Positions 944 to 48,627 of a stretch of DNA of 51,911 nucleotides are shown piece by piece; within the stretch, counting starts at the first letter, position 1; the number at the start of each line of letters is the position of its first letter. Under the pieces are notes generated by a model that worked only from the letters and a program-made list of their open reading frames with translations, ran no database searches and had not been told where the DNA came from. Source of the stretch: Rhodospirillales bacterium. Its GTDB lineage: Bacteria > Pseudomonadota > Alphaproteobacteria > Rhodospirillales > Shumkoniaceae. Made by a program: the position numbers and the translations under genes. Location of the stretch: the NCBI GenBank assembly GCA_016776725.1, contig JADHSV010000025.1, positions 1 to 51,911 on the forward strand, written 5' to 3'.

Positions 944-979
944 CAGGCCGCCGTCAACTGTTTTTTGCAAAAAGCCAGC

Positions 980-1008
980 TTGACAGAACTCTTCTCTCCG
1001 ACCAATTT
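980..1008 (+). promoter_or_regulatory. Possible sigma-70 type promoter of the TRAP/catabolic operon
   Basis: A perfect TTGACA at 980-985 is followed after 17 bases by a weak -10 (CAATTT, 1003-1008), about 50 bases before the dctP start. The -35 is good and the -10 is poor, so this is only a candidate. A short palindromic TTTTTTGCAAAAA run lies just upstream. Confidence 0.3.
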
Positions 1009-1054
1009 TGGCGACCTTAAATCCACAAGCCTCAAAACCGGGGAGAAATTACCA

Positions 1055-2041: not shown

Positions 2042-2099
2042 GCGACGGTTCAGGGCGGTGGGGTTGGCCCGCCGCCCACCGTTTTTCAAAAAAGAAACC

Positions 2100-2579: not shown

Positions 2580-3847
2580 CGGCGTTTATCATTCTTCTGG
2601 CTCTGTTGGGCCTGTTGCTTGCGGGCGTTCCCGTGGCCTTTGGACTTGGCGGTTTGGGCCTGATATTGATGTGGCTGGCCGATATTTCGCCGGTCATGGT
2701 GGCCCAGGCGCTGTACAGCACGGCGGACAATTTCGTTCTGCTGGCCGTTCCTTTGTTTTTGTTGATGTCCAACGTTTTGCTCAAGGGCGGCGTTGGGCGC
2801 GATTTATTCAATGCGGTTCAGTCCTGGGTCGGTCACTGGCCTGGCGGGCTGGCCATCGCCACCATTATTTCATGCGGGCTTTTTTCGGCCATTTCCGGAT
2901 CATCGGTGGCGACGGCGGCAACCATCGGAACCGTCGCGGTGCCCGAAATGATCGGGCGCGGCTATGACAAGCGTTTCGTGCTTGGTCTGCTGGCTGCGGG
3001 CGGTACGCTGGGTATTTTGATACCGCCGTCGATCCCCATGATCGTTTACGGCGTGATTACGGAAGAATCCATCGTCGATCTGTTCCTGGCCGGGATCGGT
3101 CCGGGGTTGATGCTGGTCGGTCTGTTTATTTTGTTCAGCCTGGGGTATGCGCGCTTTGGTGGCGGCTACACCGCGCTGGATAAGGCCGATTGGGACACGC
3201 GGGTGCGCGCCACGGTGCGCGCCCTGCCAACCGCCATCCTGGCTTTCGTGGTTATCGGCGGGATTTACGCGGGCATCTTCACACCCACCGAAAGCGCAGG
3301 CGTCGGTTTCGCGGTGGCGCTGATTATCGTATTCGCCCTGGGCACGATGAACTGGGAGAAGCTGAAAGAAGCGGTTATCGATTCCATGCGTACCACGGTG
3401 ACCATCTTTTTGATCATCGGCGGCGCGAAAATTTTCGGCAAGGCGATTACGCTGTATCGTATTCCCCAGGATATCTCCATGGCCATCAGCACCAATATCG
3501 GCGAGGCCGGGGTGTTCATTCTGATCGTTTGCGCGGTTCTGCTGTTGATGGGCTGTTTCCTGGAATCCATGTCCATGTTGCTGATCATGGTGCCGGTTCT
3601 TTTCCCGTCCCTGGCCGCGTTGGGCATTGATCCCATCTGGTTCGGCATCCTGTTCGTCATCATGATCGAATGCGCGCTGATTACCCCGCCGGTAGGGCTT
3701 AATCTGTTCGTTATCCAGGCTGTAGGGAAGGTGTCGATTAACGATGTGTTGCGGGGTGTCTGGCCGTTCATTCTGATGATGTTCGGATCCATCGTCGCCA
3801 TCTATTTCTTCCCCGATATCGCGCTCTACATTCCATTCAAACTCTGA
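2576..3847 (+). CDS. dctM: TRAP transporter large permease, DctM family
   Basis: Large sodium-coupled transport subunit, 423 residues, a normal length for DctM. About a dozen hydrophobic segments are visible. Family landmarks include the stretch around LLAVPLFLLMSNVLL, the loop GTLGILIPPSIPMIVYG and, near the C-terminus, ITPPVGLNLFVIQ. The start is the ATG inside the ATGA overlap with dctQ. The TRAP genes are followed after 18 bases by a lyase-like gene in the same direction, so the importer and the enzymes very likely share a transcript and a substrate. Confidence 0.92.
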   Translation: MTAFIILLALLGLLLAGVPVAFGLGGLGLILMWLADISPVMVAQALYSTADNFVLLAVPLFLLMSNVLLKGGVGRDLFNAVQSWVGHWPGGLAIATIISCGLFSAISGSSVATAATIGTVAVPEMIGRGYDKRFVLGLLAAGGTLGILIPPSIPMIVYGVITEESIVDLFLAGIGPGLMLVGLFILFSLGYARFGGGYTALDKADWDTRVRATVRALPTAILAFVVIGGIYAGIFTPTESAGVGFAVALIIVFALGTMNWEKLKEAVIDSMRTTVTIFLIIGGAKIFGKAITLYRIPQDISMAISTNIGEAGVFILIVCAVLLLMGCFLESMSMLLIMVPVLFPSLAALGIDPIWFGILFVIMIECALITPPVGLNLFVIQAVGKVSINDVLRGVWPFILMMFGSIVAIYFFPDIALYIPFKL

Positions 3848-7788: not shown

Positions 7789-7838
7789 TGTGACGACCGT
7801 CACAGCCAAAATCTTCCCTTCTTGGTACTATCAATGAA
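7789..7838 (+). promoter_or_regulatory. CRP-type site and class II promoter of the giant adhesin gene
   Basis: TGTGA (7789-7793), six bases, TCACA (7800-7804) form a perfect CRP/FNR-family half-site pair inside a longer palindrome with 9-base arms (7786-7794 and 7799-7807). A -10-like hexamer TACTAT lies at 7826-7831. If transcription starts at 7838, the site is centred at -41.5, the class II activator position. The remaining leader (7839-8031) is AT-rich and ends in a GGGAGAAAG ribosome site. I see no gene in it. Assignment to CRP rather than another family member is inference. Confidence 0.55.
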
Positions 7839-17000: not shown

Positions 17001-18993
17001 GGTTACCGGCGGTGATGGTGGCGGGACGCCGCTTCACTATTGGAACTTCGAAGAAAAACGTGACGGCGACTTCTTTGACGATCAGGTCGGTGGGGCCCAC
17101 GGCGAAGAATACAGCATCGTCGAAGTTGATGGCGAAGGCCGGTTCGGCAACGCGGGCGACTTCGATTCCGATCGCTGGCGTGCGGATGACGCCATTTCGG
17201 TTCCGCATACCGAGGACATGGAACTGGGCAGCGGCACGGTGACGGTGTGGTTCAACGCCACCAACGTTGATAGAACGCAGGGGATTCTTTCGAAGGATTC
17301 CTGGGGTTACGACGATGGCGGCCATCTGACCATGGGAGTGGTTGATGGCGAGGTCAAAGTCCGTCTGCAGAGCGACAACGATAGCTTCACCGTCGATGGT
17401 GGAACACTGTCGGACAATACTTGGCATCAGGCGACGTTCTCCTGGGGCGACGGCGGCATGAAACTCTATGTCGATGGTGCGTTGGTGGATTCGGACGACT
17501 ATACCGGCGGGATTGCCACCAACCAGAACCCGTTGATCATTGGCGCCAACTCCGCGTGGTCGGGCGACGACAGCGCGACGCATGGCCAGTTGGGACAATT
17601 TTTCAAGGGGCATATCGACGACGCCGCCATGTACGGCAAAGAGCTTTCGGCCGAAGAAGTTGCGACGCTTTACAGCGACGGCGTTCAGGCGATGATGGAT
17701 GGCGACGGGGCGGATACGATTGAGTATCCGTTGGTCATCGCCACCAATCTGACCGATGCCGACGGATCTGAATCGCTGGGCGACGTGACCATCAGCGGTA
17801 TTCCGGAAGGGGCTACGCTTTCAGCCGGCGCCGATAACGAGGACGGCACCTGGACGGTTTCGCAAGGCGACCTCGCGGATCTTAAAGTGACGGTCGGAAA
17901 CGATGTCGCCGCTGACTTCCAGGTTTCGGTCAGCGTCACTTCGACCGAGGCGGTGGGCGGCGATACCGCCGTGGCGAGCGCATCCGTCACCGTGCCGGTC
18001 GATGGCAACGACGCCCCGGTCCTTGAAGGCGACGGCGAAACGACGGTCGCGGCCGGCGGCGATGTCACGATTTCCGCCGCTGACATGCATCTCACTGATG
18101 ATACAAGCGGTGCGGACGAGTTGCTCTATACCCTGACCGACGACGTTGATTTCGGTTCGCTCTATCTGGATGACGGATCGGGCAATCGGACGGATCTGGA
18201 TGTCGGCGACAGCTTCAGTCAGGAAGATATCGACCTGGGTCTGCTCAGCTACGAGCAAGATGAATCGCTTGCCGATTTCTGGGATCCGGCCACCCCTGAA
18301 TGGAGCGATGGCGGTGCTCCGATTGATCAGGGCAACCTGACCATGCCGCTGGCTGCAGAAAGCGTGACCGTTACCTTCGAGGGCGAAAGCGCCGGCTACG
18401 ACAATTCGCTTGGCTGGTACAAGCTGGACGCCGACGGCAACCCGACCGATCCGCAGATGATCTGGACCAACACCGATGATGACGAGCTTTCCGAAGGAAC
18501 ATCGGTGACGCTGGATGGATTGGCGCCGGGCGAGCAGTTTGGTTTCTTCATTGTGAAGGACGGGGCCGACGAGTATCCGTGGCTTGACGGTCAGAATACC
18601 TCCGACAACACGATGCAGTTCGGTGACAACGGCAACATTGAGTTCGTTAACAACGGGGGGAACGTGACCCAAACCATCGAGTCGGCCGACTTGTTCTATA
18701 CGGACCAGTCGTTGAATTCGGATAACGTCAACCACGCGCTCTCGGGCACCGAGGGTGATGGACTGATGATCGGGTTCGAGGATCTGACCGGCGGTGGCGA
18801 CAACGATTTCAATGATGTCACATTCTCGGTGAAATACGATAACGAGGTTTCGTCGTCACCCACCAGCGACAGCTTCACCTTTACCGCCGAGGACGGTGAC
18901 GGCGCCAAGGTTGCCGATAGCGACGAAGCCGGCGACGGCTACACCGTCACCGACGGAGCGGGGACGTTCGACATCACCATCGACAACGCCTGA
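8032..18993 (+). CDS. Giant repeat adhesin, Lap-type, with FecR-like N-terminus
   Basis: A 3653-residue secreted or surface protein without a Sec signal peptide, as expected for type I secretion. In order: a FecR-like beta module (about 110-280, with TTPVATIGIRGT); a very acidic Glu-rich stretch (about 314-400); an Asp/Gly-rich linker holding two TAAG motifs (413-416 and 461-464); roughly twenty cadherin/VCBS-like repeats of about 95-110 residues (about 535-2750); a short RTX-type calcium segment with GGADNDVIDGGAG (about 2770-2810); another repeat pair; a LamG/concanavalin-like domain (about 3000-3223); a cadherin-like unit (about 3330-3420); and a DUF4114-like domain (about 3450-3605, GGDNDFNDVTF). 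Asp-rich repeats suggest calcium stiffening. LapG-family proteases cut adhesins at AAG-type motifs, and a LapG homologue is encoded nearby. The type I exporter genes are not in the window. It probably mediates attachment or biofilm formation. Confidence 0.88.
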   Translation: MAVNDLTGEFGLPEGVSPDHVVEASGSDSLILPEGMPLSDCEMVQVGDNLTLTAPDGTVTVVEGYFGTENPPQLVSPGGGQMEGDMVSQLAGPLAPGQVADAGPAVGAQPIGTVESSSGTVMATRADGTQVELQAGDPVFQGDILETSGDGSIGVVLADEATFSMAENGRMVLDEMVYDPGTQEGSINLEIVQGVFTFVSGQVAKTDPDAMTLTTPVATIGIRGTQVGIEIPDGEEMRVVLMEEGDGFVGEVVVMNESGIQVMNSSAEFTTITGAGVAPSSVGTMSISEMVQSFSSALQALPQTEGNNANDYGMKEELGDAGEDEEEAEEELADVEEEAEEAVEEVVEEVVEEEVIEEEVIEEEVVEEVVEEEIVEEIEEVVEEVAEEEVVETEELADVGDVDDIGDLGDFETAAGDEGGDDTDELADVDGFSDGGDEGGDEGGDDDAALDDIEDLADFETAAGDEGDAGFGDSVVSVTSNPFAAAGPTGGDDQGGGGGSGGGDDDDDDGGVEASGGGGDTGGGDDGPAPVVNIFPIATGGAVDGTDEDTSFSGRLSATDPDGSSLSFSGSGATEHGTVEIDANGLYTYTPNADYNGSDSFTYTVTDSDGASSTATITFEVASVDDVPVVTVPDAVSGGTGTEIDLDISAAMDDVTSETVASIEISGVPTGATLSVGTDNLDGTWTISGAEELAALDGLTITSATDDNSDFTLSVTSTSTDGGTSDPVNIEVNVNVAPEAAGGTEDALEDTAFTGQLSATDVDGDTLEFTLAEGGDAAHGTVTVNADGSYSYTPDADYNGTDTFTYEVDDGQGGTDTATVTLNVASVDDVPVVTVDDSAGDEDAAIALDISAVMDGTTTETVDFVTISDVPSGAVISVGTDSGDGTIVFTPVTANADGNFEIPAGSLDHVTITPPGDSYDDFQLSVTATSTDQSTSTPSTIDVSVAPVADAPVGTVEAAFGPEDTSISLTIDVDVPGAESVAAVGINIPQGATLSVGSDSTMTVTGNIVTGSGEDGGFTESELAELANGGLSMTPPADFNGELNLTVTSMSTDGGASEAPLTVTVTPVADIPVGSVVVEPGVEDTPIALTITADVPGNEDVASITVSGVPEGASLSAGTSSEDGSIWTLTPEELAGLEVNPAPDFNGSFDLTVRVESTDGGASTGTIPVSVAAVGDAAEVSLDAAATGAEDAAIALNISAAVADSTETVDFVTISGVPDGASLSAGTSNADGTWTLEANQLDNLTITPPADSGADFSLSVTATSTDGTTGATATVPVSVAAVADAPDLDVSNVSGVEDTAIALDITAGLTDTDGSEQITSVEITGVPDGAVLSAGTDNGGGSWTLSAGDLSGLTITPDDDDADDFSLSVAVTSTDTDPDTGAETTATTNGSFNVSVGEDADAPTLIVDDAVGAEDTAIVLDISASLNDPQEVLSLTIDGIPDGAVITVVNPGENPVDLAVTDGSVTIPPGLLGGAISITPPADFNGDIPLTVTAQSKHGGDSESVTEDLTVSVTAVDDIPTVSVADAAGDEDAAISLNITASMDAATTETLDFVTVSNVPDGATLSVGTDSLSANPDGSFTVTAGDLGGLNITPPAGDHADFTLSVAATSTDGGTSAPVDLDVAVASTNVGPDAADGTEAAVEDTAFSGQLSATDADAGDTLTFSLADGGGAANGTVTVNADGSYSYTPDADFNGTDTFTYEVDDGEGGTDTATITLNVESVGDAAEVSVADASGSEDTAITLDISAAVADSTETVDFVTISGVPAGASLSAGTSNLDGTWTLEAGDLSGLTVTPADDSSADFTLSVTATSTDGTTGTAADIDVSVAAVGDAAEVSVTDASGAEDTAITLDISAAVADSTETVDFVTVSGVPDGASLSAGTSNPDGSWTLEASDLSGLTITPAADDNADFTLSVTATSTDGTTGVAADIDVSVAAVGDAAEVSVSDASGSEDAPISLDISAAVADSTETVDFVTVSGVPDGASLSAGTSTIPGTWTLEASELDGLTITPPADSGADFNLTVAATSTDGTTGAPASIPVSVAAVADAPDLDVSNVSGVEDTAIALDITAGLTDTDGSEQITSVEITGVPDGAVLSAGTDNGGGSWTLEAGDLSGLTVTPVLNDDTDFSLSVAVTSTDTDPDTGAETTATTNGSFNVSVGEDADAPTLIVDDAVGAEDTAIALDISASLNDPQEVLSLTIDGIPDGAVITVVNPGENPVDLAVTDGSVTIPPGLLGGEISITPPEDFNGDIPLTVTAQSKHGDDSESVTEDLTVSVTPVADTTVSGSGTGAEDSPIDLAISPAVAGGEEVASVTITGVPDGASLSVGTDNGGGSWTLTPAQLNGLQLDPPADFNGDISLNVSATMTDGSTSTASPFTVSVTPVEDAPTGTVGPASGAEDSDIALVIDIDVPGAESVAAISVGNLPEGATLSVGSDSALTVFDNTVVGSGADGSFTVADLAELAGGGLVMTPPADFNGELNLSVNSMSTDGGTSDMPLAVTVTPVADAPEMTVSEASGLEDTAIPLNISADVPGNEDLAEIAIGNVPAGATLSVGTDSGLNLDGNVLSGSGEGGVFTVDDLLALEGGALSITPAADDNSDFNLNVTATSTDGGSSAAVLPISVAAVAEDADVTFSVSDGEGETTLPGADDYGEAETIQVDGGGVEYTYDDADSATVSVTDEWGSVNSIDATSDDAADVVLQDFVEANVTLGGEGDSTVDIENAASGDVATGSGDDSIEITGQAGESGAFDVDAGAGDDTITVDGDYDASAVVGGAGQDTITTGGGEDVITGGADNDVIDGGAGVDVAVFSGSFTDYAISIDDTTGEITVAGPDGTDTLVNIETLRFDDGDVPVDSLGTAEPIISITPAAGNEDSAVALVIDASAGAASDPIGSITIGGVPAGATLSVGTSDMTLDGNVLSGSGVDGQFTASDLQALSDGAVTITPPENSDVDFSLSVSATSAGGASAQSVSMPVTVDAVADVPVITVELGDPTVTGGDGGGTPLHYWNFEEKRDGDFFDDQVGGAHGEEYSIVEVDGEGRFGNAGDFDSDRWRADDAISVPHTEDMELGSGTVTVWFNATNVDRTQGILSKDSWGYDDGGHLTMGVVDGEVKVRLQSDNDSFTVDGGTLSDNTWHQATFSWGDGGMKLYVDGALVDSDDYTGGIATNQNPLIIGANSAWSGDDSATHGQLGQFFKGHIDDAAMYGKELSAEEVATLYSDGVQAMMDGDGADTIEYPLVIATNLTDADGSESLGDVTISGIPEGATLSAGADNEDGTWTVSQGDLADLKVTVGNDVAADFQVSVSVTSTEAVGGDTAVASASVTVPVDGNDAPVLEGDGETTVAAGGDVTISAADMHLTDDTSGADELLYTLTDDVDFGSLYLDDGSGNRTDLDVGDSFSQEDIDLGLLSYEQDESLADFWDPATPEWSDGGAPIDQGNLTMPLAAESVTVTFEGESAGYDNSLGWYKLDADGNPTDPQMIWTNTDDDELSEGTSVTLDGLAPGEQFGFFIVKDGADEYPWLDGQNTSDNTMQFGDNGNIEFVNNGGNVTQTIESADLFYTDQSLNSDNVNHALSGTEGDGLMIGFEDLTGGGDNDFNDVTFSVKYDNEVSSSPTSDSFTFTAEDGDGAKVADSDEAGDGYTVTDGAGTFDITIDNA
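11878..12572 (+). repeat. Long near-identical block A inside the adhesin gene
   Basis: This ~695-base segment encoding two cadherin-like repeats recurs almost unchanged at 14161-14855, offset by 2283 bases (761 codons, in frame). Most differences are single bases, many silent. It indicates a recent in-frame segmental duplication or gene conversion. Confidence 0.85.
13198..14160 (+). repeat. Three tandem 321-bp repeat units in the adhesin gene
   Basis: Units begin at 13198, 13519 and 13840, each 107 codons and each starting with the Gly-Asp-Ala-Ala-Glu-Val motif. A fourth, older copy begins at 11554. Unit length is exactly constant in this array, so copy number could change by slippage or recombination without breaking the frame. 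Confidence 0.85.
14161..14855 (+). repeat. Long near-identical block B inside the adhesin gene
   Basis: Second copy of the 11878-12572 block in the same orientation and frame, directly after the 321-bp tandem array. Differences cluster at the segment encoding residues around TPVLNDDTDF, versus TPDDDDADDF in the first copy. Confidence 0.85.
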
Positions 18994-37478: not shown

Positions 37479-39077
37479 ATGGACGAACATAACGACAAGA
37501 ATAAACCGGACGACGGCAGGCGGGCGGGGGCGCCGCTATTGGAGGCGCGCGGCCTGACCAAGGCCTTCCCCGGTGTCATCGCCAACGATACGGTCTCGTT
37601 TATCATTCGCCCCGGCGAGGTCCATGCCCTGCTGGGTGAAAACGGGGCCGGGAAAAGCACCCTGGTAAAAATGATGTACGGCCTGCTGCGCCCCGACGAG
37701 GGCGAGCTTTTTTGGCAGGGCCGCCCGGTACAAATGGACAAGCCGTCGACGGCGCGGGCATTGGGCATCGGCATGGTGTTCCAGCACCTGTCGCTTTTCG
37801 AGCCCCTGAGCGTGCTGGAAAATGTCGCCCTGGCCGTGCCCGGCAAGTGGAACCCCAAGGCCTTGCGCAAGCGCATTATCGAGGTTTCCACGGCCTATGG
37901 GTTGCCGCTGGAGCCCGACCGCATCGTCCAGTCCATGTCGGTGGGTGAGCGCCAGCGCATTGAAGTGGTGCGCTGCCTTCTTCAGGACCCCCAGCTGCTG
38001 ATTTTGGATGAACCGACCAGTGTGCTGACCCCGCAGGAAGCCGACCAGCTTTTCGCCACGCTGGACAAGCTGTCGGCAGAGGGCCGGTCCATTCTATATA
38101 TTTCGCATAAATTGCACGAAGTGCGCCGCCTGTGCTCGGGCGCGACCGTGCTGCGCGAAGGGCGCGTGGTGGCCCATTGCGATCCGCGCGAGGAAACGCC
38201 GGGGTCATTGGCCGAATTGATGCTGGGCACGCGCATTGCGCCGCCCAGCCGCGCGTCCACCCGGCGCACGACGCCGCGCCTGAGGGTTTTCAACGTATCC
38301 GCTACCTCAAGCCGCGCTTTCGGGTTCGATTTGAAGGACATCTCGTTCACCCTGCACGGCGGCGAAATTCTGGGCATCGCCGGAATTGCCGGCAACGGGC
38401 AGAACGAACTGATGAAGGTGCTGACCGGCGAAACCAAGCTGGACCATGAGGCCGACGCCATTCGCGTGGACGGCGCGCCGGTGGCCCATTTCGGACCGAT
38501 CCACCGGCGTTTGTGCGGCATGGCGTTTGTGCCCGAAGAGCGTAACGATCACGCCGCCGCCCTTAATCTGGCGCTGACCGACAACACGTTTTTGACGGGT
38601 TTCTCGAAACTGCGCCTGACCCGCGGCGGCATGATCCGGTCGCGCCGCACGCTGGAGCACACCAAGCGGGTGGTCGATACCTACGGCGTGCGCACCGCCG
38701 GTCCCAGGGCCGATGCCGGTAGCCTGTCGGGCGGCAATTTGCAGAAATTCGTGGTTGGCCGCGAAATCATGCAGGCGCCCGAGGTTCTGATTGTCGCCCA
38801 ACCGACCTGGGGTGTGGATGCGGGCGCGGCGCTGGCCATCCGTCAGGCGCTGATTGATCTGGCGGCGACGGGCAGCGCGGTGTTGATCATTTCCCAGGAT
38901 CTGGACGAGATTTTCGCCATTTGCGACCGCATCGCGGTGATGAGCGAAGGGCGGCTGTCGCCGCCGGTTCCCGTTGCGCAAGCCACCACCGAGGAAATCG
39001 GGCTGCTGATGGGCGGCGTGCACGCGCCCACGATTCCGCCCGAGCCCGAGCCCGAGCAGCGGGAGGCGGCCACATGA
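37479..39077 (+). CDS. BMP/nucleoside-type ABC importer ATP-binding protein
   Basis: A 532-residue double ATPase of the sugar/nucleoside ABC type (YufO/NupO-like). The first nucleotide-binding domain is complete: Walker A GENGAGKST (53-61), signature MSVGERQR, Walker B LLILDEPTS and the H-loop region YISHK. The second has a Walker A without the GKS core (GIAGNGQNELM), a clean LSGGNLQK signature and a Walker B-like VLIVAQPTWGVD, the usual asymmetric pattern of this family. It powers uptake with the two permeases and the BMP-type binding protein encoded next. The stop overlaps the next start by ATGA (39074-39077). Confidence 0.92.
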   Translation: MDEHNDKNKPDDGRRAGAPLLEARGLTKAFPGVIANDTVSFIIRPGEVHALLGENGAGKSTLVKMMYGLLRPDEGELFWQGRPVQMDKPSTARALGIGMVFQHLSLFEPLSVLENVALAVPGKWNPKALRKRIIEVSTAYGLPLEPDRIVQSMSVGERQRIEVVRCLLQDPQLLILDEPTSVLTPQEADQLFATLDKLSAEGRSILYISHKLHEVRRLCSGATVLREGRVVAHCDPREETPGSLAELMLGTRIAPPSRASTRRTTPRLRVFNVSATSSRAFGFDLKDISFTLHGGEILGIAGIAGNGQNELMKVLTGETKLDHEADAIRVDGAPVAHFGPIHRRLCGMAFVPEERNDHAAALNLALTDNTFLTGFSKLRLTRGGMIRSRRTLEHTKRVVDTYGVRTAGPRADAGSLSGGNLQKFVVGREIMQAPEVLIVAQPTWGVDAGAALAIRQALIDLAATGSAVLIISQDLDEIFAICDRIAVMSEGRLSPPVPVAQATTEEIGLLMGGVHAPTIPPEPEPEQREAAT

Positions 39078-40141
39078 TCCGCCTTGTTCCCCGCCGCCAG
39101 CGCTCGCGCGCCATGGTTTGGGGCGCGCCGTTGCTGGCCGTCGCGCTGACCCTGATTACCGGCGGGCTGACGTTCGCCATCATGGGCAAGCCCATGGGGG
39201 CGGCGCTGTTCACCTTCTTTGTGCAACCCCTGACCAGCGTCTACGGTGTGAGCGAACTGATCGTCAAGGCCTCGCCCCTGGTTCTCATCGGCATCGGCCT
39301 GTCGCTGGGATTTCGCGCCAATGTCTGGAATATCGGGGCCGAGGGCCAATACACCTTTGGCGCCATTCTGGGCGGCGGCATCGCCATTTTCTTTCATGAC
39401 AGCACCAGCCCGTTTTTGCTGCCCGCCATGCTCATTGCAGGCGCTGTCGGCGGTATGGCCTGGGCGGCCATTCCCGCCTTTTTGCGAACACGCTTCAACG
39501 CCAACGAAATTCTGGTCAGCCTGATGCTGACCTACGTTGCCGTGCTGCTGCTCAGTTATCTGGTGCATGGGCCGTGGCGCGACCCGGACGGATATAACTT
39601 CCCCGAATCGCGGCTGTTCCCGGAGGCCGGAACCATGCCCGTTCTGATCGAGGGAACCCGCGTTCATATGGGCGTGTTTTTCGCGCTGATCGCCGTGGGC
39701 GTGGCCTTGCTGCTGGGCAAGGGACTGACCGGGTTCAAGTTGAAGTTGGTGGGCCTGGCCCCCGAAGCGGCCCGCTTCGCCGGTTTTTCCGAAACCCGGA
39801 TCATCTGGTTTGCCCTGCTGGCCGGCGGCGGTCTTGCCGGGCTGGCGGGCGTTATCGAAGTGGCCGGACCCATCGGCCAGCTGATCCCGACCATATCGCC
39901 GGGCTATGGGTTCACCGCCATCATCGTGGCCTTCCTGGGCCGTCTTCATCCCGTTGGCGTGCTGCTGGCCGGTCTGGTCATGGCGCTGACGTACCTGGGC
40001 GGCGAGACGGCGCAAATCGAAATCGGGGTTCCGGCGGCCGTTACCGGGCTGTTCCAGGGGTTCTTGCTGTTCTATCTCTTGGCCTGCGACGTCCTGATCC
40101 GCTATCGCGTCCACATTCTAATCGGAAAGGCGGCGCGATGA
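39074..40141 (+). CDS. ABC importer permease (YufP/NupP-like)
   Basis: A 355-residue permease of the nucleoside/branched-chain type. Landmarks: LGFRANVWNIGAEGQYTFGA and, in the cytoplasmic coupling region, LKLVGLAPEAARFAGFSETR. About ten hydrophobic segments. The start at 39074 is set by the ATGA overlap with the ATPase gene; a longer frame reaching 38921 lies inside that gene and has no membrane character. Overlaps the second permease by ATGA (40138-40141). Confidence 0.92.
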   Translation: MIRLVPRRQRSRAMVWGAPLLAVALTLITGGLTFAIMGKPMGAALFTFFVQPLTSVYGVSELIVKASPLVLIGIGLSLGFRANVWNIGAEGQYTFGAILGGGIAIFFHDSTSPFLLPAMLIAGAVGGMAWAAIPAFLRTRFNANEILVSLMLTYVAVLLLSYLVHGPWRDPDGYNFPESRLFPEAGTMPVLIEGTRVHMGVFFALIAVGVALLLGKGLTGFKLKLVGLAPEAARFAGFSETRIIWFALLAGGGLAGLAGVIEVAGPIGQLIPTISPGYGFTAIIVAFLGRLHPVGVLLAGLVMALTYLGGETAQIEIGVPAAVTGLFQGFLLFYLLACDVLIRYRVHILIGKAAR

Positions 40142-41067
40142 GCGGGTTCGAGCATCTGACACCATTGATTCTGACCGTGATTACGGCGTCCACGCCATTG
40201 TTGTTCGCCGCCGCCGGGGAACTGGTGACGGAACGCTCGGGCGTTCTGAACCTGGGGGTCGAGGGGTTGATGGTGACCGGCGCGCTGGCCGCCTTCGCAG
40301 GCACATATGTTTCGGGAAGCGCCATCATCGGCGTGCTGTGCGGGGCCCTGGCGGGCGTGCTTATGGCCCTGGTTTTCGCGGCGCTGACGCTGAGCCTGCT
40401 GGCCAATCAGGTGGCGACGGGCCTGGCCCTGACCATTTTCGGCCTGGGGCTGACGTCGCTTCTGGGTTCGGGTTTCATCGGCGTGACCGTCGAAAACCTT
40501 CCGAAGCTATACATTCCGGGCCTTAGCGAAATACCGGTTCTCGGACCGATCGTGTTTGGCCAGGACGCCATGGTTTATCTGTCGTTCGCCTGCGTCGGCG
40601 GTATCGGCTGGGTGCTTGCCAGAACCCGCGTCGGCCTGATTTTGCGGGCTGTTGGGGCGTCCCATGATTCGGCCCATGCCCTGGGCTATCCGGTTATTCG
40701 TATCCGCTATATGGCGACCATGTTCGGCGGCGCCATGGGCGGCATTGCGGGATCGTACCTGTCCTTGGTCTACACACCCATGTGGGCGGAAAACCTGACT
40801 GCGGGGCGCGGCTGGATCGCCCTGGCGCTGGTGGTCTTTTCCACGTGGCGGCCGGGCAGGCTGGTGGTGGGCGCCTATCTGTTCGGCGCGATCACGGTCA
40901 TTCAGCTGCATGCGCAGGGCCTGGGCGTGGCCGTGCCGTCGCAGTTCCTGTCCATGACGCCCTATCTGGTGACGATTATGGTTCTGGTCGTGATTTCCCG
41001 CGACCGCTTGAAAATTCAACTCAACGCGCCGGCCTGTCTGGGCCGGAGCTTCCATCCCGCGCAATAG
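40138..41067 (+). CDS. ABC importer permease (YufQ/NupQ-like)
   Basis: A 309-residue second permease, forming a heterodimer with the previous one. Landmarks: AAAGELVTERSGVLNLGVEG near the N-terminus, VATGLALTIFGLG, and the cytoplasmic loop LRAVGASHDSAHALGYPVIR that contacts the ATPase. Translationally coupled to the upstream permease. It precedes the binding-protein gene by 42 bases. Confidence 0.92.
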   Translation: MSGFEHLTPLILTVITASTPLLFAAAGELVTERSGVLNLGVEGLMVTGALAAFAGTYVSGSAIIGVLCGALAGVLMALVFAALTLSLLANQVATGLALTIFGLGLTSLLGSGFIGVTVENLPKLYIPGLSEIPVLGPIVFGQDAMVYLSFACVGGIGWVLARTRVGLILRAVGASHDSAHALGYPVIRIRYMATMFGGAMGGIAGSYLSLVYTPMWAENLTAGRGWIALALVVFSTWRPGRLVVGAYLFGAITVIQLHAQGLGVAVPSQFLSMTPYLVTIMVLVVISRDRLKIQLNAPACLGRSFHPAQ

Positions 41068-41109
41068 CGGTTGCGCGGTTAAATCAGAAGCGCAGTAAGG
41101 AGAGAAACG

Positions 41110-42183
41110 ATGCTACGTTCCACGTTGAAAACTCTGGCACTCGCTGCCATCGGCGGCGCCATGTTAAGCGTTTCCGCCCAGGCCGAACCGACCAAGGTCG
41201 GCTTCATCTACGTCGGCCCCATTAGCGATCACGGCTGGTCCTTCCGCCATGACGTCGGCCGTCTGGCCATCGAGAAAGAGCTGGGCGACAAGGTCAAGAC
41301 CAGCTACGTCGAAAGCGTCAGCGAAGGCCCCGACGCTGAACGCGTCATCAGCCAGCTGGCGTCGTCGGGTCACAAACTGATCTTCACCACCTCGTTCGGC
41401 TACATGAACCCGACCCTGAAAGTCGCCAAGCGTTTCCCGGGCGTTAAGTTCGAACACGCCACCGGTTACAAGCAGGCCGCCAACGTTGCCACCTATTCGG
41501 CGCGTTTTTATGAAGGCCGTTATGTGATCGGCGCCATTGCCGGCAAGATGACCAAATCCAACGTCATCGGTTACGTCGGCGCCTATCCGATCCCGGAAGT
41601 CGTGCGCGGCATTAACGCCTTCTTGCTGGGCGCGCGTTCGGTCAACCCGAAGGTCTCCGTCAAGGTGGTCTGGGTCAACAGCTGGTACGACCCCGGCAAG
41701 GAAGCCGATGCGGCCAAGGCTCTGATCGACCAGGGCGTCGACGTTCTGGCCCAGCATACCGATTCGCCCGCTCCGCTTCAGGTTGCCGAACAGCGCGGCA
41801 TCGTCGGTTTCGGTCAGGCTTCCGATAACATCGCGTTCGCGCCCAAGGCCCAGTTGACGGCGATCATCGATAACTGGGACAAGTACTACGTCGAACGCGC
41901 CAAGGCGGTTATCGACGGCTCCTGGAAGAAAGGCGACGTGTGGGGCGGCCTGAAATCGACCATGGTATCGATGGCTCCCTACACCAACCTGCCGGCCGAC
42001 GTGAAGGCGATGGCGCAGAAGGTGGAAGCCGACATCATCGCCGGCAAGGTCCACCCGTTCGCAGGCCCCATCAAGGATCAGTCCGGCGCGCTTAAAGCCA
42101 AAGCCGGCGAAACGCTGGATGACGGCACGCTGCTGGGCATGAACTGGTACGTCGAAGGCGTCGAAGGCAAACTGCCGCAGTAA
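41110..42183 (+). CDS. BMP family ABC importer substrate-binding protein
   Basis: A 357-residue periplasmic binding protein of the basic membrane protein (BMP/Med/BmpA) family, which in studied cases binds nucleosides or related purines. It has a signal peptide ending AQA (about residue 25) with no lipobox, unlike many BmpA lipoproteins. Family features are KVGFIYVGPISDHGWSF, the loop IFTTSFGYMNPTLKVAKRFP, and VWVNSWYDPGKEADAAKALI. Strong ribosome site AAGGAGAG. It is the last gene of the importer operon, before a shared terminator. The precise ligand is unknown. Confidence 0.92.
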   Translation: MLRSTLKTLALAAIGGAMLSVSAQAEPTKVGFIYVGPISDHGWSFRHDVGRLAIEKELGDKVKTSYVESVSEGPDAERVISQLASSGHKLIFTTSFGYMNPTLKVAKRFPGVKFEHATGYKQAANVATYSARFYEGRYVIGAIAGKMTKSNVIGYVGAYPIPEVVRGINAFLLGARSVNPKVSVKVVWVNSWYDPGKEADAAKALIDQGVDVLAQHTDSPAPLQVAEQRGIVGFGQASDNIAFAPKAQLTAIIDNWDKYYVERAKAVIDGSWKKGDVWGGLKSTMVSMAPYTNLPADVKAMAQKVEADIIAGKVHPFAGPIKDQSGALKAKAGETLDDGTLLGMNWYVEGVEGKLPQ

Positions 42184-42263: not shown

Positions 42264-44222
42264 TCATTTGGATTGGGCGACGAACACGCCGTCCCAATCT
42301 TGGGCGGGGGGTGTCGTTTCGTAACGTTCCATGCGCGTCTCGTACAGGTCGTACACGCGGGCCAGACCTAAATCGCCGCAAAGGGCGCGGCATTCGGCCA
42401 ATTTCGAGCGGGCCATTGGCCATTCCCGCCCTCGGTAGGCCGCCATCATTTCGTGGTGGGAGGCGCGCAAGGTCTGGAACCCTTCATCGCCGGCCACGCT
42501 TTCATCGCCCAGCAGGGCGAATATGCGGGTCGCCCGCTTTCTTCCCTTCACCTGAATAAGATCGATATCCAGCGTTGCCAGTTCGGCCACGGCGCTTTGC
42601 GTGTTTTCGCCGATGATGACATCGACGCCGTGGGTCTTGCATAACCCTTCCAGGCGTGAGGCCAGATTTACCTCGTCGCCGAGAACCGTGTAGTCGAAGC
42701 GCCGACGCGATCCCATGTTGCCGACGATCACGTCCCCGGTGTTGATTCCAATGCCGATGCGTAGGCGGGTGTGGGCGCGCCCTTCGTTCTCCGCCTCGGC
42801 CGATAGGCGCTGGTTCAGGCGAAGCATTTCGTCTTGCATGGCCAGGGCGGTCAGGCAGGCGTTGCGGGCATGGGCGGCATCGTCCAATGGCGCGTTCCAA
42901 AACGCCATTATGCAATCACCCATGTACTTATCGACCGTACCATTTCGATCCATGATCACATCGGTAAGCGGGGTCATCAGGTTGGTGACCAGCCGGGTCA
43001 GGCCTTCGGCGTCGAACTGTTCGGATATAGCGGTGAAGTCGCGAACGTCACCGAACATCACACTCATGTTGCGTGTTTCGCCACCCAGTTTAAGCGCCTG
43101 CGGGTTGGCGATCAGCTGCCCGACCACCTGGGGTGAAAGGTATTGGGCGAAGGATTTGCGGATAAGGCCTTTTTCCAAGCGTTGGCGCCGACCGAAATGG
43201 ATCTCGCTCAGCCACATGGAAAAAATAACGCTGAGGGTGGGGATCACCAGGGGAAGGATAGTCAGGTTCCAGCGGAAAGCCACAAAGCAGCCGACCCACA
43301 GCGCCACCACAAAGCAGCCGACCATGGTAATTCGCACAAGGATGCTGCTGGCCAGGAACGACAACCCCACCGCCAGCAGCGTAAAGGCGAACACGAGGCT
43401 GGCGTTACCCCACCATCCCAGTCTTATGAACTGGCGGCCATCCAGGATTTGCGCCAGGGCATGGGCATGGATAAATACGCCCGGCATTTCCCGCACTTCG
43501 CGCTCGCCAATTCCGGTGGCGAACGGTGTTCGGTGCAAATCGGTCAGCGTCAGGTCGGCCCCGATGAAGGCGATTTTGCCGGCGAACAAGCGGTCAGGCG
43601 CGATATCGACGGCGTGAGCGGGAACCGTGCGAAAGGGTCGATTGCCCTCGCGGGCAGGCCCACGCCAGGAAATCGGTGTTTCGTCGGCCGGAACGGGAAA
43701 TCCCAGTTTTTCCGCCATTCTGGGGGTGATACCTCGAAGAAAGCCCGCGCCGGGTTCCTCGCGGCCCGCAAATATCGTTCGCACGGTGCCGTCGAAAGGG
43801 TCTTTTGCGAGATTTGCGAAGCCGCGCAGATCGGGGGCGATCACGGCGCGTAAATATTCCACCTGCTGTGCGTCCAGCCCCTCCTTCGATCCGGCATAGG
43901 CGACAACCAGCGGAATTTGGGCCCCGATTTCATCCAGCGTACGAATAAGTTCGCGGTCCTTGGCCCGTTCGGTCGGTTGATCCAGCAGGAAATCGAGGAC
44001 AATGGCGCGGACGCCCTTGGCGTGCAGTGTTTGAAGAACGCTGCTCAGGAAATGCCGGTCGATGGGAGAGCGGTAGGCGAAACGTTTGAGGGTGTCTTCG
44101 GTAACCGCGACCACGACAATTTCGCCGGGCTTGTCCTGCCGGGGCAACAGATTGGCGACACGGAAATCCTCGACCCACGCCCCCATCAGCGACAAAAACG
44201 GAAAAGTCTTCACCGCCGTCAC
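42264..44222 (-). CDS. CHASE2-domain adenylate cyclase
   Basis: A membrane class III cyclase. From the GTG at 44222 it has 652 residues: an extracytoplasmic CHASE2 sensor (about 20-260), three hydrophobic segments (about 270-345) and a cyclase domain (about 375-560) with both metal Asp (FGDVRDF, YMGDCIMAF), the Lys of DKYMGD and the Asp of FDYTVLGD that favour ATP over GTP, and NLASRLEGL. Activity as an adenylate cyclase is therefore expected. The coordinates use the only standard start codon. However, the same frame continues upstream without interruption to the stop of the FecR-like gene (44313-44315) and there encodes a basic-then-hydrophobic segment (RKRLLALTAFLAITLLSTLIS), the expected first membrane helix. 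A TAAGGGA ribosome site sits eight bases before an ATC at 44300-44298. Initiation at that ATC, or a sequence error there, would give 678 residues. Confidence 0.9.
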   Translation of the reverse strand: MTAVKTFPFLSLMGAWVEDFRVANLLPRQDKPGEIVVVAVTEDTLKRFAYRSPIDRHFLSSVLQTLHAKGVRAIVLDFLLDQPTERAKDRELIRTLDEIGAQIPLVVAYAGSKEGLDAQQVEYLRAVIAPDLRGFANLAKDPFDGTVRTIFAGREEPGAGFLRGITPRMAEKLGFPVPADETPISWRGPAREGNRPFRTVPAHAVDIAPDRLFAGKIAFIGADLTLTDLHRTPFATGIGEREVREMPGVFIHAHALAQILDGRQFIRLGWWGNASLVFAFTLLAVGLSFLASSILVRITMVGCFVVALWVGCFVAFRWNLTILPLVIPTLSVIFSMWLSEIHFGRRQRLEKGLIRKSFAQYLSPQVVGQLIANPQALKLGGETRNMSVMFGDVRDFTAISEQFDAEGLTRLVTNLMTPLTDVIMDRNGTVDKYMGDCIMAFWNAPLDDAAHARNACLTALAMQDEMLRLNQRLSAEAENEGRAHTRLRIGIGINTGDVIVGNMGSRRRFDYTVLGDEVNLASRLEGLCKTHGVDVIIGENTQSAVAELATLDIDLIQVKGRKRATRIFALLGDESVAGDEGFQTLRASHHEMMAAYRGREWPMARSKLAECRALCGDLGLARVYDLYETRMERYETTPPAQDWDGVFVAQSK

Positions 44223-44312: not shown

Positions 44313-45053
44313 TTAAGCTGGATCGTTCGATACCAGCATACGCGCCTGCTCAATACAGTCGACCCCAATCATCCATGCGGCCATCGCATTTTTGGAAGGC
44401 ACGCTCGCCGGAACTTCGCGGAAGGTTATCAGGGTATCCTTGTCATCAACGGTAAACCAGATCTTGGCGTTATCCTTCACGGGTACGCCCGCAGGCAACC
44501 GCATGGTTTGGGTGCCGTCCGGCCAACGGCTTAGCGTATTCCACGTTTCGTCAAGGCTGGTCAGGGAAATCTCATCGAACGTCTGGCTTGCGGGGCGCCA
44601 CAGTTCGATGTCATCGGCGCTTCGGTAACACCACGCGCCAGCCCTGGTCGTATCAACCAACCATGGCTGGGGGCTCGCCGCGGCATCCGCCGTCTTGCCA
44701 AAGTCCGCGGTGCGGGCGACGCCCAGAGCGGTCGTTGTTTTGTTTCGCGGGCTCATTAGCCCCTTCAGCGCTGCAAAAACCCCCTCGCCATCCTGTTTCA
44801 GGTTGGCGGCGGCGGCGCCATCGTAACGTCCGGCCACGGTAAACATGGTGCCGTCCGTTGAAATCAATGTAATCTTCTGTCCGGCTTCCAGGTGCAGGAT
44901 ATGATCGCTGTCTATAACCTGACCCGATTGCAAGGAAAGGCCCTCGGCTGCAAACACCACCAACTCGGAAGCCTGCGCCTGGGTCAGGCAAAGAAACACC
45001 GCGGGCAATATCAGCCCCGTCAGGGTGTTTCGTGCGATATCGCGGATGCTCAT
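44313..45053 (-). CDS. FecR-like periplasmic protein upstream of the cyclase
   Basis: A 246-residue exported protein: signal peptide (MSIRDIARNTLTGLILPAVF, cleavage after QAQA) followed by a FecR-like beta-rich N-terminal domain (VVFAAEGLSLQSGQVIDSD, then ITLISTDGTMFTVAGRYDG) and a second domain with a Trp/Cys-containing strand pattern (LVDTTRAGAWCYRSADDIEL). Small FecR-like proteins next to CHASE2 cyclases recur in alphaproteobacteria, so it may present a signal to the CHASE2 sensor; this is inference. It is the first gene of the cyclase operon, with its stop codon part of the cyclase ribosome site. Confidence 0.75.
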   Translation of the reverse strand: MSIRDIARNTLTGLILPAVFLCLTQAQASELVVFAAEGLSLQSGQVIDSDHILHLEAGQKITLISTDGTMFTVAGRYDGAAAANLKQDGEGVFAALKGLMSPRNKTTTALGVARTADFGKTADAAASPQPWLVDTTRAGAWCYRSADDIELWRPASQTFDEISLTSLDETWNTLSRWPDGTQTMRLPAGVPVKDNAKIWFTVDDKDTLITFREVPASVPSKNAMAAWMIGVDCIEQARMLVSNDPA

Positions 45054-45111: not shown

Positions 45112-45161
45112 GAGCGGGATTATACGTGATGGTATCGCCTGATACTGTGACAGGCGTCACA
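45112..45161 (-). promoter_or_regulatory. CRP-type class II promoter of the FecR-cyclase operon
   Basis: TGTGA (45146-45150), six bases, TCACA (45157-45161): a perfect CRP-type pair. On the minus strand a perfect TATAAT lies at 45124-45119. This predicts a start at 45112 with the CRP site centred at -41.5, exactly the class II activator geometry. The same site ends 26 bases before the divergent TRAP gene start (45188), where a bound protein would more likely block transcription or sit at the promoter. Confidence 0.65.
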
Positions 45162-45187
45162 AACAGGGCGAAATCAAGGAAGTATTG

Positions 45188-45730
45188 GTGAAGATCGTCG
45201 GGCAGATGGTTGGGGCGTTGGATGGGCTGAACGAACGAGTCGGCCGCGCGGTTGCGTGGCTTGTATTGTTGATGGCGCTCAACGTCTTCATCGTGTTTTT
45301 TCTGCGCCATGTTTTCGCCGTTGAACTCGCGTGGTTGCGCGAATCCTATGCCTGGATGCATGGCATCATATTTATGGCCGGCGCGGGTTACACCGTTCTC
45401 AATAACGGTTTTCTGCGTGTCGACATTATTTATCGAAAAAAGGATGCCCGCCAGCGGGCGGTGGCCGATCTGACGGGCGCGTTGGCGTTTCTGGCGCCGT
45501 TCGCAATCACGGTGGCATGGCTTAGCTGGCCCTACGTGGCGGAGGCCTGGACGCGCCTTGACGGGGCGGGCGAGATTGGCGGACTGCCGGGGGTGTTTCT
45601 TCTCAAGTCGGTAATTTTGGTGTTTTGCCTGCTGATCGGGTTGCAGGGCGCCGCTCTTGTCGGGCGTTCGATCATGGTTTTGCGTGATCAGCAGGATGAA
45701 CCCGTGGCCGAGGGGCCCGGCGGCAAATGA
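45188..45730 (+). CDS. dctQ: TRAP transporter small permease, DctQ family
   Basis: A 180-residue protein with four hydrophobic segments and the DctQ amphipathic motif (AWLRESYAWMHG), followed by FLRVDIIYRKKDARQRAVADL between segments, typical of the subfamily. The start is GTG at 45188 after AAGGAAG (an adjacent TTG at 45185 is equally placed). It overlaps the caspase-DctM fusion gene by ATGA (45727-45730), so the two are made together. No DctP binding protein is encoded nearby, which is unusual for a TRAP pair. Confidence 0.87.
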   Translation: MKIVGQMVGALDGLNERVGRAVAWLVLLMALNVFIVFFLRHVFAVELAWLRESYAWMHGIIFMAGAGYTVLNNGFLRVDIIYRKKDARQRAVADLTGALAFLAPFAITVAWLSWPYVAEAWTRLDGAGEIGGLPGVFLLKSVILVFCLLIGLQGAALVGRSIMVLRDQQDEPVAEGPGGK

Positions 45731-48627
45731 TCGGCTTAATAGCGTCCCGTATTTTCCGTGTTTTCGCGATCCTGATTGCGTTGCTCAATTCGGCTGGCGC
45801 GGCGGTTCTGGTTGATGCTAACGCACTGGATGGCAAGGATGGTATTGCTTTGGTCGTTGGCAATGCCCGCTATCAGACGGCGCCGCTGAGCAACCCCGAG
45901 AACGATGCCAATGCTATTGCGCGGGCCCTTGACGGCCGTGGGTTCAAGGTCGAAAAGCTGATCAATGCGACGCGTACCGAGATGGAGCGGGCGATCGTCC
46001 GATTTGGCCGACGATTAAAGAAATCGCAAACCGTGGGTCTTTTCTTCTACGCCGGTCATTCGGTGCAGATCGGAGGACGCAACTACCTTATTCCGCTGGG
46101 AACCAGTATCGAGGCGGAAGATGAAATCCGTGTGGAATCGGTGGATCTGGAATACGTGCTGGCGCGCATGGGTGCGGCTGCCAATCCCATGAATTTGGTG
46201 ATCCTTGACTCATGCCGTGACAATCCGTTCGGTTTCAGCTCTTTGAACGTTCCCAGCGGCCTGGCCCCGGTTGATGCCCCGCCGGGATCGTTCATCGCCT
46301 ACGCGACCGCACCGGGCAAGGTCGCTGCCGATGGCAGTGGCGACAATGGTATTTATACAAGTCACCTGCTCCGCGCCTTGCAACTCAGCGGGTTGAGGAT
46401 TGAGGACGTTTTTAAACGTGTCCGGCGCGAGGTGGCGAAGCAAACGGACGGGCTTCAAGTGCCTTGGGAATCGTCGTCGCTGACCCGGAATTTCTACTTT
46501 CGGCCGGAGCAGCGAACGCCTGCGGACGCATCGCTGCAAACCCAACCAAAAAGCATTGAAACGACCTATTGGGAATCGATCCGCGGAAGCCGCGACAAGG
46601 CGGTGTTGCGCGCCTATCTTACGCGCTATCCAAACGGCGCATACTCCGGTTTGGCCAAGGCGAAACTGGAGGAATTGCGGGTCCTGTCATCCGGGGCCGC
46701 CCCGCAATCTTCTGTCAGCTTCGACGTCGCCGCACGCGACGGGGTGTTTGTCGCACTAAAAACGGCGAATATTCGCTCGCAGCCGACCATCAGTTCGCAG
46801 AAGATCGGGCTGCTGGCGCTGGGCGAGCCGATCAAGGTGACGGGAAAGACCGAGGTTGCCGGAAAAAGCTGGTATCGCATTGAAAAGACCGATCAGACCG
46901 AGGGCTTCATCTATGCCACGCTTCTTGCCGAAAAGGGGGCAAGCTGGTTCAATTTCAACCTTGATCCAAAGGGGTTCGCGATCCTTCTGGTGGCGGTGAG
47001 TATTGGTTTGCTGCTGGTGGGATTTCCAAGCGTTTTCACGCTTGGCACGTCGGCTCTCGCGTTTGCCCTGCTCGGCGGTTTGCTGGGCGTGTTCGATCTG
47101 AATTTGCTTGGCAACATTCCGTCGCACTTTCTGGGCACCATGACCGATGACACCTTGGTGGCGGCGCCCCTGTTTGTGTTCATGTGGCTTTTGCTTGCGC
47201 GATCGGGTTTGGATGTGCAGCTGGTTGCTACGGTGCGATCCATGTTTGGCAGCGTGCGTGGCGGCCTGGCCGCAGCTTTGCTGATCGCGGGCATTGTACT
47301 GGCCGCCATAACGGGTTTCGTCGGCATGACCGTGGGGACGTTGGGGCTTTTGCTGCTGCCGATCATGTTGAGCGCAGGCTACGCCAAACACCTGGCCAGT
47401 GGCGCCACGCTGGCCTCGGCAAGTCTTGGGTATATCGCGCCGCCATCCATCATCCTGATTATTCTGGGCGTGGTTTTGCAAAGCGCCAATATTGAATCGC
47501 AACAGTTAATCGGCAACTGGACCGTAGAGCCGGTTTCGGTTGCCGACCTGTTCGCCGCCGCAGTGCTGCCGGGGATACTGCTGCTGGGGATGTATTTGCT
47601 TTGGATTGCCATAAAATTGCGTTTGTCCCCCGAGGATTGCCCGCCGCCTATGCAGATAAAACGACAGGTGTCGCGGCGAATGGTAATTCAAAGTGTGGTG
47701 GCCCCCGTTGTCCTTCTGCTGGTGGTGCTGGGCGGTATCTTCACCGGCCTCGCGTCACCGAGCGAGGCCGCGGGAATCGGCGTTATTGGCGCCATTCTTC
47801 TGGGGGGGCGCGAGAAAAGAACCTTCCCGAAATCAAGGCCCGCCAATCCGCAATCCCTGGCCGTGGTCGATAAAGCCGTCGAGGATCGCAAGCGCAACGG
47901 CGCCGCCTACGAGGGAAACGCGTTTCGTTATGGTGACGGACCACCGTTGACCGGGGCTGTCTGCCTGCTGGCGCTGATAGCCCTTGCGGCGTTTACTGAC
48001 ATTCATGTGCCGCGGGATATGGCGATCAATGGTGAGATGGCCGTTTTCGTGATGGCCTGCCTGTTGACGGCCGTTTTCGTGTGGGGCTTTGCGATCAGTC
48101 TTTGGCGGCTGGCGATACTTGATGCCCTGGTCGAGGCCATGCGTGAAACGGTCAACGTCAGTGCCATGATCTTCGTTGCGTTTCTTGCCGCAGCCGTATT
48201 CGTGCTCGTGTTTCGCGGGTTTGACGGTGATGACGTCATTGCCGGAATCCTGGCCATCCTTCCCGGCGCGCCCATGGGAGCCGTGCTGGCCGTTCTGTGC
48301 ACCATGTTTTTGCTGGGCCTGGTTTTGGATGTTTTTAGCGTATTGCTTATCTACGTTTCCATCGTCGCGCCGCTGATCTTGCAGATGGGGGTTAATCCCG
48401 TTTGGTTCGGCGTGATGATTATTCTCACCCTGCAAGCCAATTTCATGTTGCCGCCTTATAGCTTTGCGCTGTCACGCGTGCGCGCCATCGCACCTGCGCT
48501 ACCGCGCATGCAGGGCTCCCTGCAAGGCGCCATTCCCTTCGTGATCATTCAGTTGATTGGATTGATCGTACTGGCGATATTCCCGGAAATCGCCACCTGG
48601 CTCGCGGACCTGCGCGCAACCCCGTAG
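45727..48627 (+). CDS. Fusion of a periplasmic caspase-like domain, an SH3 domain and a TRAP DctM permease
   Basis: One uninterrupted 966-residue protein. Residues 1-26: signal peptide or anchor (IFRVFAILIALLNSAGAA). Residues about 36-260: caspase-like (peptidase C14) domain starting GIALVVGNARYQ, with the catalytic dyad in FYAGHS (His111) and LDSCRDNPF (Cys163) both present. Residues 280-317: a helical segment (YWESIRGSRDKAVLRAYL) often seen after such domains. Residues about 345-402: bacterial SH3-like domain (TANIRSQPTISSQKIG, then SWYRIE, EGFIYATLL). Residues about 415-966: DctM permease (APLFVFMWLLLARSG, YIAPPSIILIILG, NFMLPPYSFALS), with a hydrophilic insert near 700-745. DctM proteins are normally about 430 residues. 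Coupled to dctQ by ATGA. The caspase and SH3 domains should face the periplasm. Function is unknown; a proteolytic sensor or gate on the transporter is possible. Confidence 0.9.
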   Translation: MIGLIASRIFRVFAILIALLNSAGAAVLVDANALDGKDGIALVVGNARYQTAPLSNPENDANAIARALDGRGFKVEKLINATRTEMERAIVRFGRRLKKSQTVGLFFYAGHSVQIGGRNYLIPLGTSIEAEDEIRVESVDLEYVLARMGAAANPMNLVILDSCRDNPFGFSSLNVPSGLAPVDAPPGSFIAYATAPGKVAADGSGDNGIYTSHLLRALQLSGLRIEDVFKRVRREVAKQTDGLQVPWESSSLTRNFYFRPEQRTPADASLQTQPKSIETTYWESIRGSRDKAVLRAYLTRYPNGAYSGLAKAKLEELRVLSSGAAPQSSVSFDVAARDGVFVALKTANIRSQPTISSQKIGLLALGEPIKVTGKTEVAGKSWYRIEKTDQTEGFIYATLLAEKGASWFNFNLDPKGFAILLVAVSIGLLLVGFPSVFTLGTSALAFALLGGLLGVFDLNLLGNIPSHFLGTMTDDTLVAAPLFVFMWLLLARSGLDVQLVATVRSMFGSVRGGLAAALLIAGIVLAAITGFVGMTVGTLGLLLLPIMLSAGYAKHLASGATLASASLGYIAPPSIILIILGVVLQSANIESQQLIGNWTVEPVSVADLFAAAVLPGILLLGMYLLWIAIKLRLSPEDCPPPMQIKRQVSRRMVIQSVVAPVVLLLVVLGGIFTGLASPSEAAGIGVIGAILLGGREKRTFPKSRPANPQSLAVVDKAVEDRKRNGAAYEGNAFRYGDGPPLTGAVCLLALIALAAFTDIHVPRDMAINGEMAVFVMACLLTAVFVWGFAISLWRLAILDALVEAMRETVNVSAMIFVAFLAAAVFVLVFRGFDGDDVIAGILAILPGAPMGAVLAVLCTMFLLGLVLDVFSVLLIYVSIVAPLILQMGVNPVWFGVMIILTLQANFMLPPYSFALSRVRAIAPALPRMQGSLQGAIPFVIIQLIGLIVLAIFPEIATWLADLRATP

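Follow-up and report, generated by a model that had tools for sequence, protein, structure and literature searches.

A caspase-SH3 module fused to a diverged TRAP transporter subunit in a Rhodospirillales genome

What is a caspase-type protease doing at the N-terminus of a transporter subunit? The question is raised by one gene in a stretch of 51,911 nucleotides of Rhodospirillales DNA (contig JADHSV010000025.1; the whole stretch is called the window here), which joins a caspase and an SH3 domain to the large subunit, DctM, of a tripartite ATP-independent periplasmic (TRAP) transporter. A first-pass annotation, made from the letters alone, had described a continuous frame of 966 codons with a signal peptide, a caspase domain with its catalytic dyad, an SH3-like domain and a full-length DctM, and had suggested that the protease might act at the transport site. 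We confirm the build, describe a second genome that carries it and put forward a tentative answer, which we hold to be possible but short of probable: the protein may be a periplasmic paracaspase-like protease with an SH3 domain, fused to a TRAP large subunit whose DctQM part serves as anchor or sensor, and tied to cyclic AMP (cAMP).

The fusion gene and its domains

The gene is a single uninterrupted frame that runs from a signal-like N-terminus through a caspase domain, a linker and SH3_3 to a long-type DctM, with the following features.

45727..48627, + strand: caspase-SH3-DctM fusion gene, 966 aa
45727..45804, + strand: signal-peptide-like N-terminus, residues 1–26 (hydropathy peak at residues 2–20; helix 2–25 in the structure model)
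45841..46497, + strand: caspase domain, residues 39–257 (Peptidase_C14, PF00656, E 4e-37; most model blocks above 90 in predicted local distance difference test, pLDDT; nearest solved structures MALT1 paracaspase)
46057..46059, + strand: codon of the dyad residue His111
46213..46215, + strand: codon of the dyad residue Cys163
46549..46689, + strand: helical linker, residues 275–321 (three confident helices in the model)
46762..46923, + strand: SH3_3 domain, residues 346–399 (PF08239, E 8.5e-10; low-confidence model)
46978..48624, + strand: long-type DctM part, residues 418–966, start approximate (PF06808; 39–44% identity to 13 tabulated unfused DctMs)
48319..48354, + strand: HPout region, residues 865–876 (altered in both known fusions)
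48448..48450, + strand: codon of Leu908, aligned with Thr369, a ligand of the Na2 site in PpSiaM
45185..45730, + strand: dctQ, overlapping upstream gene (PF04290, E 3e-12; 64% identity to dctQ of the second genome)

Pfam matched Peptidase_C14, SH3_3 and DctM in the expected order, the last at residues 424–693 plus a second stretch (E 1.5e-51), and gave no STAC or histidine kinase domain. Several unfused long-type DctMs align in one piece over about 418–960, and we take this part to be FcbT3-like. The large subunit has a partner, as the overlapping dctQ lies upstream and its stop shares an ATGA with the start of the fusion. The DctM half of the structure model was built on a shallow alignment (mean pLDDT 64.6, DctM blocks mostly below 70), and we draw no conclusion from it.

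The caspase part is well kept. In 77 caspase-matching frames from public genomes, the second fusion included, the dyad His is present in 75 and the dyad Cys in 73 of the 76 frames that have a residue at the position; the frames that differ are short or match weakly. Acidic positions are kept as well (D60 and D161 each in 75/76 frames with a letter there, D202 in 71/72). These counts cover all 77 frames; an earlier 38-row alignment had used 33 of the 76 non-fused ones. As expected of a caspase fold, the best Foldseek matches were to MALT1 (E 7e-12). MALT1 cleaves after Arg or Lys, and acidic residues like these three presumably line its Arg pocket. Because the acidic positions are conserved, the sequence suggests that the fusion caspase, too, cleaves after Arg or Lys.

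An SH3_3 domain follows the caspase in three of five other caspase proteins scanned (L171, L172 and L252). Two of these three belong to the genome of the window, and one of the two has a weak TPR match as its tail; the other tails are an FGE-sulfatase domain in L252, where a similar helical linker is visible, and a stretch with nothing in Pfam. The remaining two proteins are one with a rhodanese domain and one without SH3. A defence system was considered and dropped, PADLOC having returned only a generic caspase match (E 2e-8) and cyclase cross-hits. At L193 4591–9243 (genome G019), dctP, dctQ and dctM are followed, 15 bp behind dctM and on the same strand, by a lipoprotein-like caspase gene; as gene-neighbour support this is weak, since none of five congeners has a caspase there.

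On which side of the membrane would the module lie? Passages of a TRAP paper describe TM1 as joining Q to M only in fused QM proteins (PMC9352664), and those of another suggest, without direct observation, a cytoplasmic N-terminus for one fused QM (PMC11801797). Counting helices from there puts the N-terminus of M outside. This deduction, together with the signal-like N-terminus, argues for a caspase-SH3 module on the periplasmic side, the side that the first-pass annotation had proposed.

Origin of the fusion and divergence of its membrane part

The same order, dctQ and then caspase-SH3-DctM, is found in a second genome (G054, a Rhodospirillaceae metagenome-assembled genome), on the 8,178-base contig DUZD01000179.1, which came from a contig scan that queried two caspase peptides only. 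The proteins are 53% identical over their alignment, the caspase parts 75%, SH3 47%, DctQ 64% and the DctM parts 52–54% without their loop or 48–49% with it. A chimeric assembly or a missed frameshift could be suspected of a draft genome in 52 contigs (2.48 Mb, 73.9% complete), but architecture and gene order recur at this distance in an independent assembly, so the fusion is no assembly accident and an artefact is highly improbable. The ATGA overlap seen in the window is not conserved, as the G054 gene, as called, has a TTG start about 30 bp behind dctQ.

The two fusion caspases are sisters in a tree of 44 rows (support 100/100), and so are the two fusion DctMs in a tree of 26 rows (100/99), with the provisos that long rows were flagged as unsurely placed in both trees and that the caspase bootstrap had not settled. 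Given sister placement in both, the simplest reading is a single fusion event, whether or not transfer followed. The fusion is rare, being present in 2 of 317 genomes of the order, the window's own counted. It was found in the own genome only in a draw of 385 genomes of the class (threshold 1e-110, and also with a junction query) and in an overlapping draw of 369 genomes of the phylum (threshold 1e-55); at most two candidates per genome were scored in the order, class and phylum searches, and at most seven in the junction query, so that weaker fusions could be missed. None of 683 matching plasmid records reaches 80% coverage, and the viral contigs gave one partial DctM and no fusion.

While the caspase is well kept, the DctM part has left its family. 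At 185 columns invariant in 19 unfused DctMs of the same type, the window protein has lost 68 and G054 34, and 30 of the losses are common to both (hypergeometric 9e-12), against 0–12 departures when each unfused row is left out in turn. A set of 24 unfused DctMs of mixed type, five of which the own genome contributes, has 83 conserved columns, of which 63 are retained in the window protein and 76 in G054. The HPout motif, LDFIEI or close to it in relatives, reads LDVFSV and LDSMAM in the fusions, and transmembrane helix 11 is also altered. P878S and G912S in the window protein fall where the relatives agree 19/19 and 18/18; the twin prolines are kept at both sites in the fusions. Thr369, the Na2 side-chain ligand whose replacement by Ala left about 3% of transport in PpSiaM (passages of PMC9971032), aligns with Leu908 in the window and is still Thr in G054. 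End branches in the DctM tree measure 3.91 for the window and 0.70 for G054 (median 0.54), and in the caspase tree 0.29 and 0.10 (median 0.25). We read this as a shift in the role of the membrane part, which would have begun in the common ancestor and gone further in the window lineage. The full-length DctM of the first-pass annotation stands, qualified in being a long-type protein that has diverged strongly.

Could the DctM part be a passive tether, a decaying membrane anchor on a protein in which the caspase alone matters? The very long window branch would fit, as would the occurrence of caspase-SH3 modules with other tails. We consider it unlikely: a single helix would suffice as an anchor, yet a full-length DctM and a DctQ are kept in both lineages, and the changes are shared, not random (30 of the 34 in G054).

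The absence of a substrate-binding protein (SBP) at the locus has to be read with care. Neither the surroundings of the fusion in the window nor the G054 contig gave a dctP match, as the first-pass annotation had seen for the window, whereas one is present at 12 of 14 unfused dctM loci that were retrieved with longer flanks; six of these 12 are from one genus and one is L193, fetched for its caspase, and the contigs of the other two loci end at or near the gene. The window does hold a separate TRAP set at 965–3847 (+), with DctP and DctM by Pfam and a 173-aa frame between them, and one DctP query found 16 matches in the own genome. Away from the fusion, moreover, each of the two genomes encodes a membrane-anchored DctP; the two proteins share 59% identity, and in G054 the contig starts just before the gene. 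The copy in G000 (C12, L217 8242–9372, − strand) has an N-terminal hydrophobic segment, no obvious cleaved signal and no matching dctQM adjoining, nor is there a fusion-like dctQ or dctM within the 17 kb fetched around it. Its orphan status is only relative, as the opposite strand encodes, at a distance of 2.3 kb, a DctM-domain protein (with DUF3394) that follows an NMT1-like binding protein. The anchored DctP was rejected as a specific partner on grounds of co-occurrence, since 160 of 317 genomes hold a homologue at E 1e-62. Because both fusion genomes hold such a protein elsewhere, the absent local dctP does not show that the fusion works independently of an SBP.

These observations bear on the possibility that the fusion is a working TRAP transporter for a new substrate, with a changed DctM site, an unlinked SBP and a caspase-SH3 module that gates it or binds peptidoglycan. 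The intact frame, the twin prolines, a codon-position pattern of purifying type, the well-kept DctQ (64%) and the anchored DctP of both genomes are what such a transporter would show. Set against them are the window Leu in place of a Thr whose loss nearly abolished transport in PpSiaM, the two serine substitutions at otherwise uniform positions, the wide distribution of the anchored DctP beyond fusion carriers and the missing SBP gene, and we regard a working transporter as rather unlikely.

It is very unlikely, in our judgement, that the caspase makes or releases peptides which the same protein imports, the protease replacing the SBP. This comes near the first-pass idea of a protease at the transport site, of which the fusion and the predicted side stand and favour it, as does the absence of dctP from the locus; there is no support for a DctM that transports in the ordinary way, the Na+ and substrate regions being altered in both fusions. 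Known TRAP substrates, moreover, are to our knowledge small organic acids.

The divergent neighbours and their spacer

The first-pass annotation missed the off-family character of the DctM, and also the cyclase neighbourhood and a CRP-type site on the other side of dctQ.

44313..45053, − strand: secreted-type protein of a family without a Pfam name (homologues in 24 of 120 genomes, the own included)
42264..44222, − strand: CHASE2 adenylate/guanylate cyclase (PF05226, E 2e-30; PF00211, E 4e-20)
45146..45161, no strand: CRP-type palindrome TGTGA-N6-TCACA, TGTGACAGGCGTCACA, in the divergent intergenic region
45132..45145, no strand: second palindrome, GTATC-N4-GATAC, which fits the loose Clr core of Sinorhizobium meliloti

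The secreted-protein gene diverges from the dctQ-fusion arm across a spacer of 131 bp. Its family has two invariant Cys (20 rows); it looked FecR-like by eye, an identity dropped because none of 20 members has a Pfam match. Of 27 fetched loci, 18 have the cyclase gene adjoining that of the secreted protein, in the same orientation and at most about 720 bp away; in G054 the secreted-protein gene keeps its place and direction relative to the fusion. In another genome (G064), a stand-alone caspase, placed as in the window, and a CHAT protein diverge from the same pair. Caspase or CHAT genes occur at 9 of the 27 secreted-protein loci and at none of 16 control loci (two-sided Fisher 0.016). CHAT-domain proteins adjoin the secreted-protein/CHASE2 pair at L156 3724–10344 and at L139 4469–10159, with TPRs in the latter. 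Just beyond the cyclase, at 37479–42183 (+), lie ABC uptake genes for an ATPase, two permeases and a BMP-type binding protein.

Perfect CRP-type palindromes number five in the 2.48-Mb draft genome, with none for a reversed-pattern control, and two in the window against 0.04 expected; the genome has four Crp-type genes over the cut-off. The other window palindrome (7789–7804) is about 230 bp ahead of 8032–18993 (+), which encodes a 3653-aa protein with FecR, bacterial Ig/cadherin-like and laminin-G-like domains. The Clr core, whose pattern was taken from passages of PMC10127613, shows no enrichment in the window, with 18 occurrences against 13.0 expected and as many in 9 of 100 shuffles. A laxer pattern, GTGAC-N4-GTCAC, matches 10 of 268 loci, four of which are copies of window sites.

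A proposed mechanism and its known relatives

What we read from the sequence is the frame, the domains and the dyad, a fusion best read as having one origin, a DctM diverged beside a well-kept caspase, a cyclase pair and a CRP-type site; each step of mechanism beyond this anatomy is inferred. The caspase-SH3 module would hang on the periplasmic face of the membrane, held by a DctQ-DctM core that would act as a membrane anchor or a retuned ligand or ion sensor and not as an ordinary importer. The caspase might cut a periplasmic protein; the neighbouring secreted protein and the CHASE2 ectodomain would be the first to consider. A CRP/Clr-type regulator could link the expression of one arm, or of both, to cAMP. 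A fuller version strikes us as doubtful: a proteolytic transceptor, in which a TRAP core that has given up transport (window) or changed it (G054) senses a ligand or ion gradient and uses the attached periplasmic caspase to signal to a cAMP circuit, the regulator of which binds the promoter common to both arms.

Several observations weigh against this proposal. Differences at DctM codon positions 2 and 3 (0.22–0.25 versus 0.57) have the pattern of purifying selection, and the DctM is by this measure still under some constraint. In G054 transport may persist, as its DctM still has Thr at the Na2 position and differs at just 7 of the 83 broadly conserved columns. The G054 contig ends before a cyclase could be seen, and its spacer holds neither a CRP-type palindrome, with up to two mismatches allowed, nor a Clr core. 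Exact matches to the palindrome among 253 loci are three copies of the window's own site; the 27 neighbour-pair loci from relatives contain none. The site was first noticed by eye in the printed spacer, which makes the enrichment test post hoc. Finally, the count of 9/27 loci mixes loci of different length and includes partial caspase matches, and the control loci were of our choosing and did not include L193, a dctM locus that had been fetched because of its caspase.

The roles of bacterial caspases are, as we understand the field, largely unknown. The present caspase is joined to a membrane protein whose fold family is known, its side of the membrane can be predicted, and a cyclase gene and a CRP-type operator lie nearby, which allows a direct search for its substrate and trigger. 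If the proposal holds, the fusion would add the TRAP family to the transporters that have become sensors, with a protease in place of a kinase.

Literature searches, the broader of them among the matches listed, found no system of this build, in agreement with the first-pass annotation; most subscription papers lay outside their scope. The main text of a 2012 survey of bacterial caspase homologues does not contain 'TRAP' (PMC3501461).

The closest relatives of the membrane part are unfused long-type DctMs (G063, G148 and G033; 40–42% identity to the fusion), which share the domain and a dctQ but lack caspase-SH3 and have a dctP at the locus. Bacterial orthocaspases and paracaspases (Peptidase_C14), some with SH3_3, have the same caspase domain and dyad, while the C-terminal partner in the fusion is a polytopic transporter subunit. 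SLC5-STAC histidine kinases such as RpuS, CrbS and CbrA likewise join a transporter domain to a signalling part (passages of PMC9100948), a role that is putative for the fusion; they differ in having a kinase output, no protease and a transporter of another family. A natural DctM-DctP fusion of A. intestini also carries an extra domain on DctM, but this is an SBP and not a protease (passages of PMC9352664). In the cyanobacterium T. erythraeum, a metacaspase-CHASE2 protein physically links the two domains that are neighbours here, although the passages on it (PMC3501461) describe one chain with no TRAP part and a caspase predicted to be cytoplasmic.

CHASE2 cyclases and Clr form a known circuit in S. 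meliloti, with the FecR protein SMc02177 among the Clr targets (passages of PMC5498481 and PMC13001267). CyaD1, CyaD2 and CyaK there offer a CHASE2 cyclase, a small neighbouring gene and a CRP-type regulator, a set with candidate counterparts here; the passages on that circuit mention no caspase or TRAP fusion, and the window neighbour has no FecR match. The window locus thus resembles the Clr circuit, without membership being implied. All the parts of the fusion locus are of kinds already known, and it is their combination that is new.

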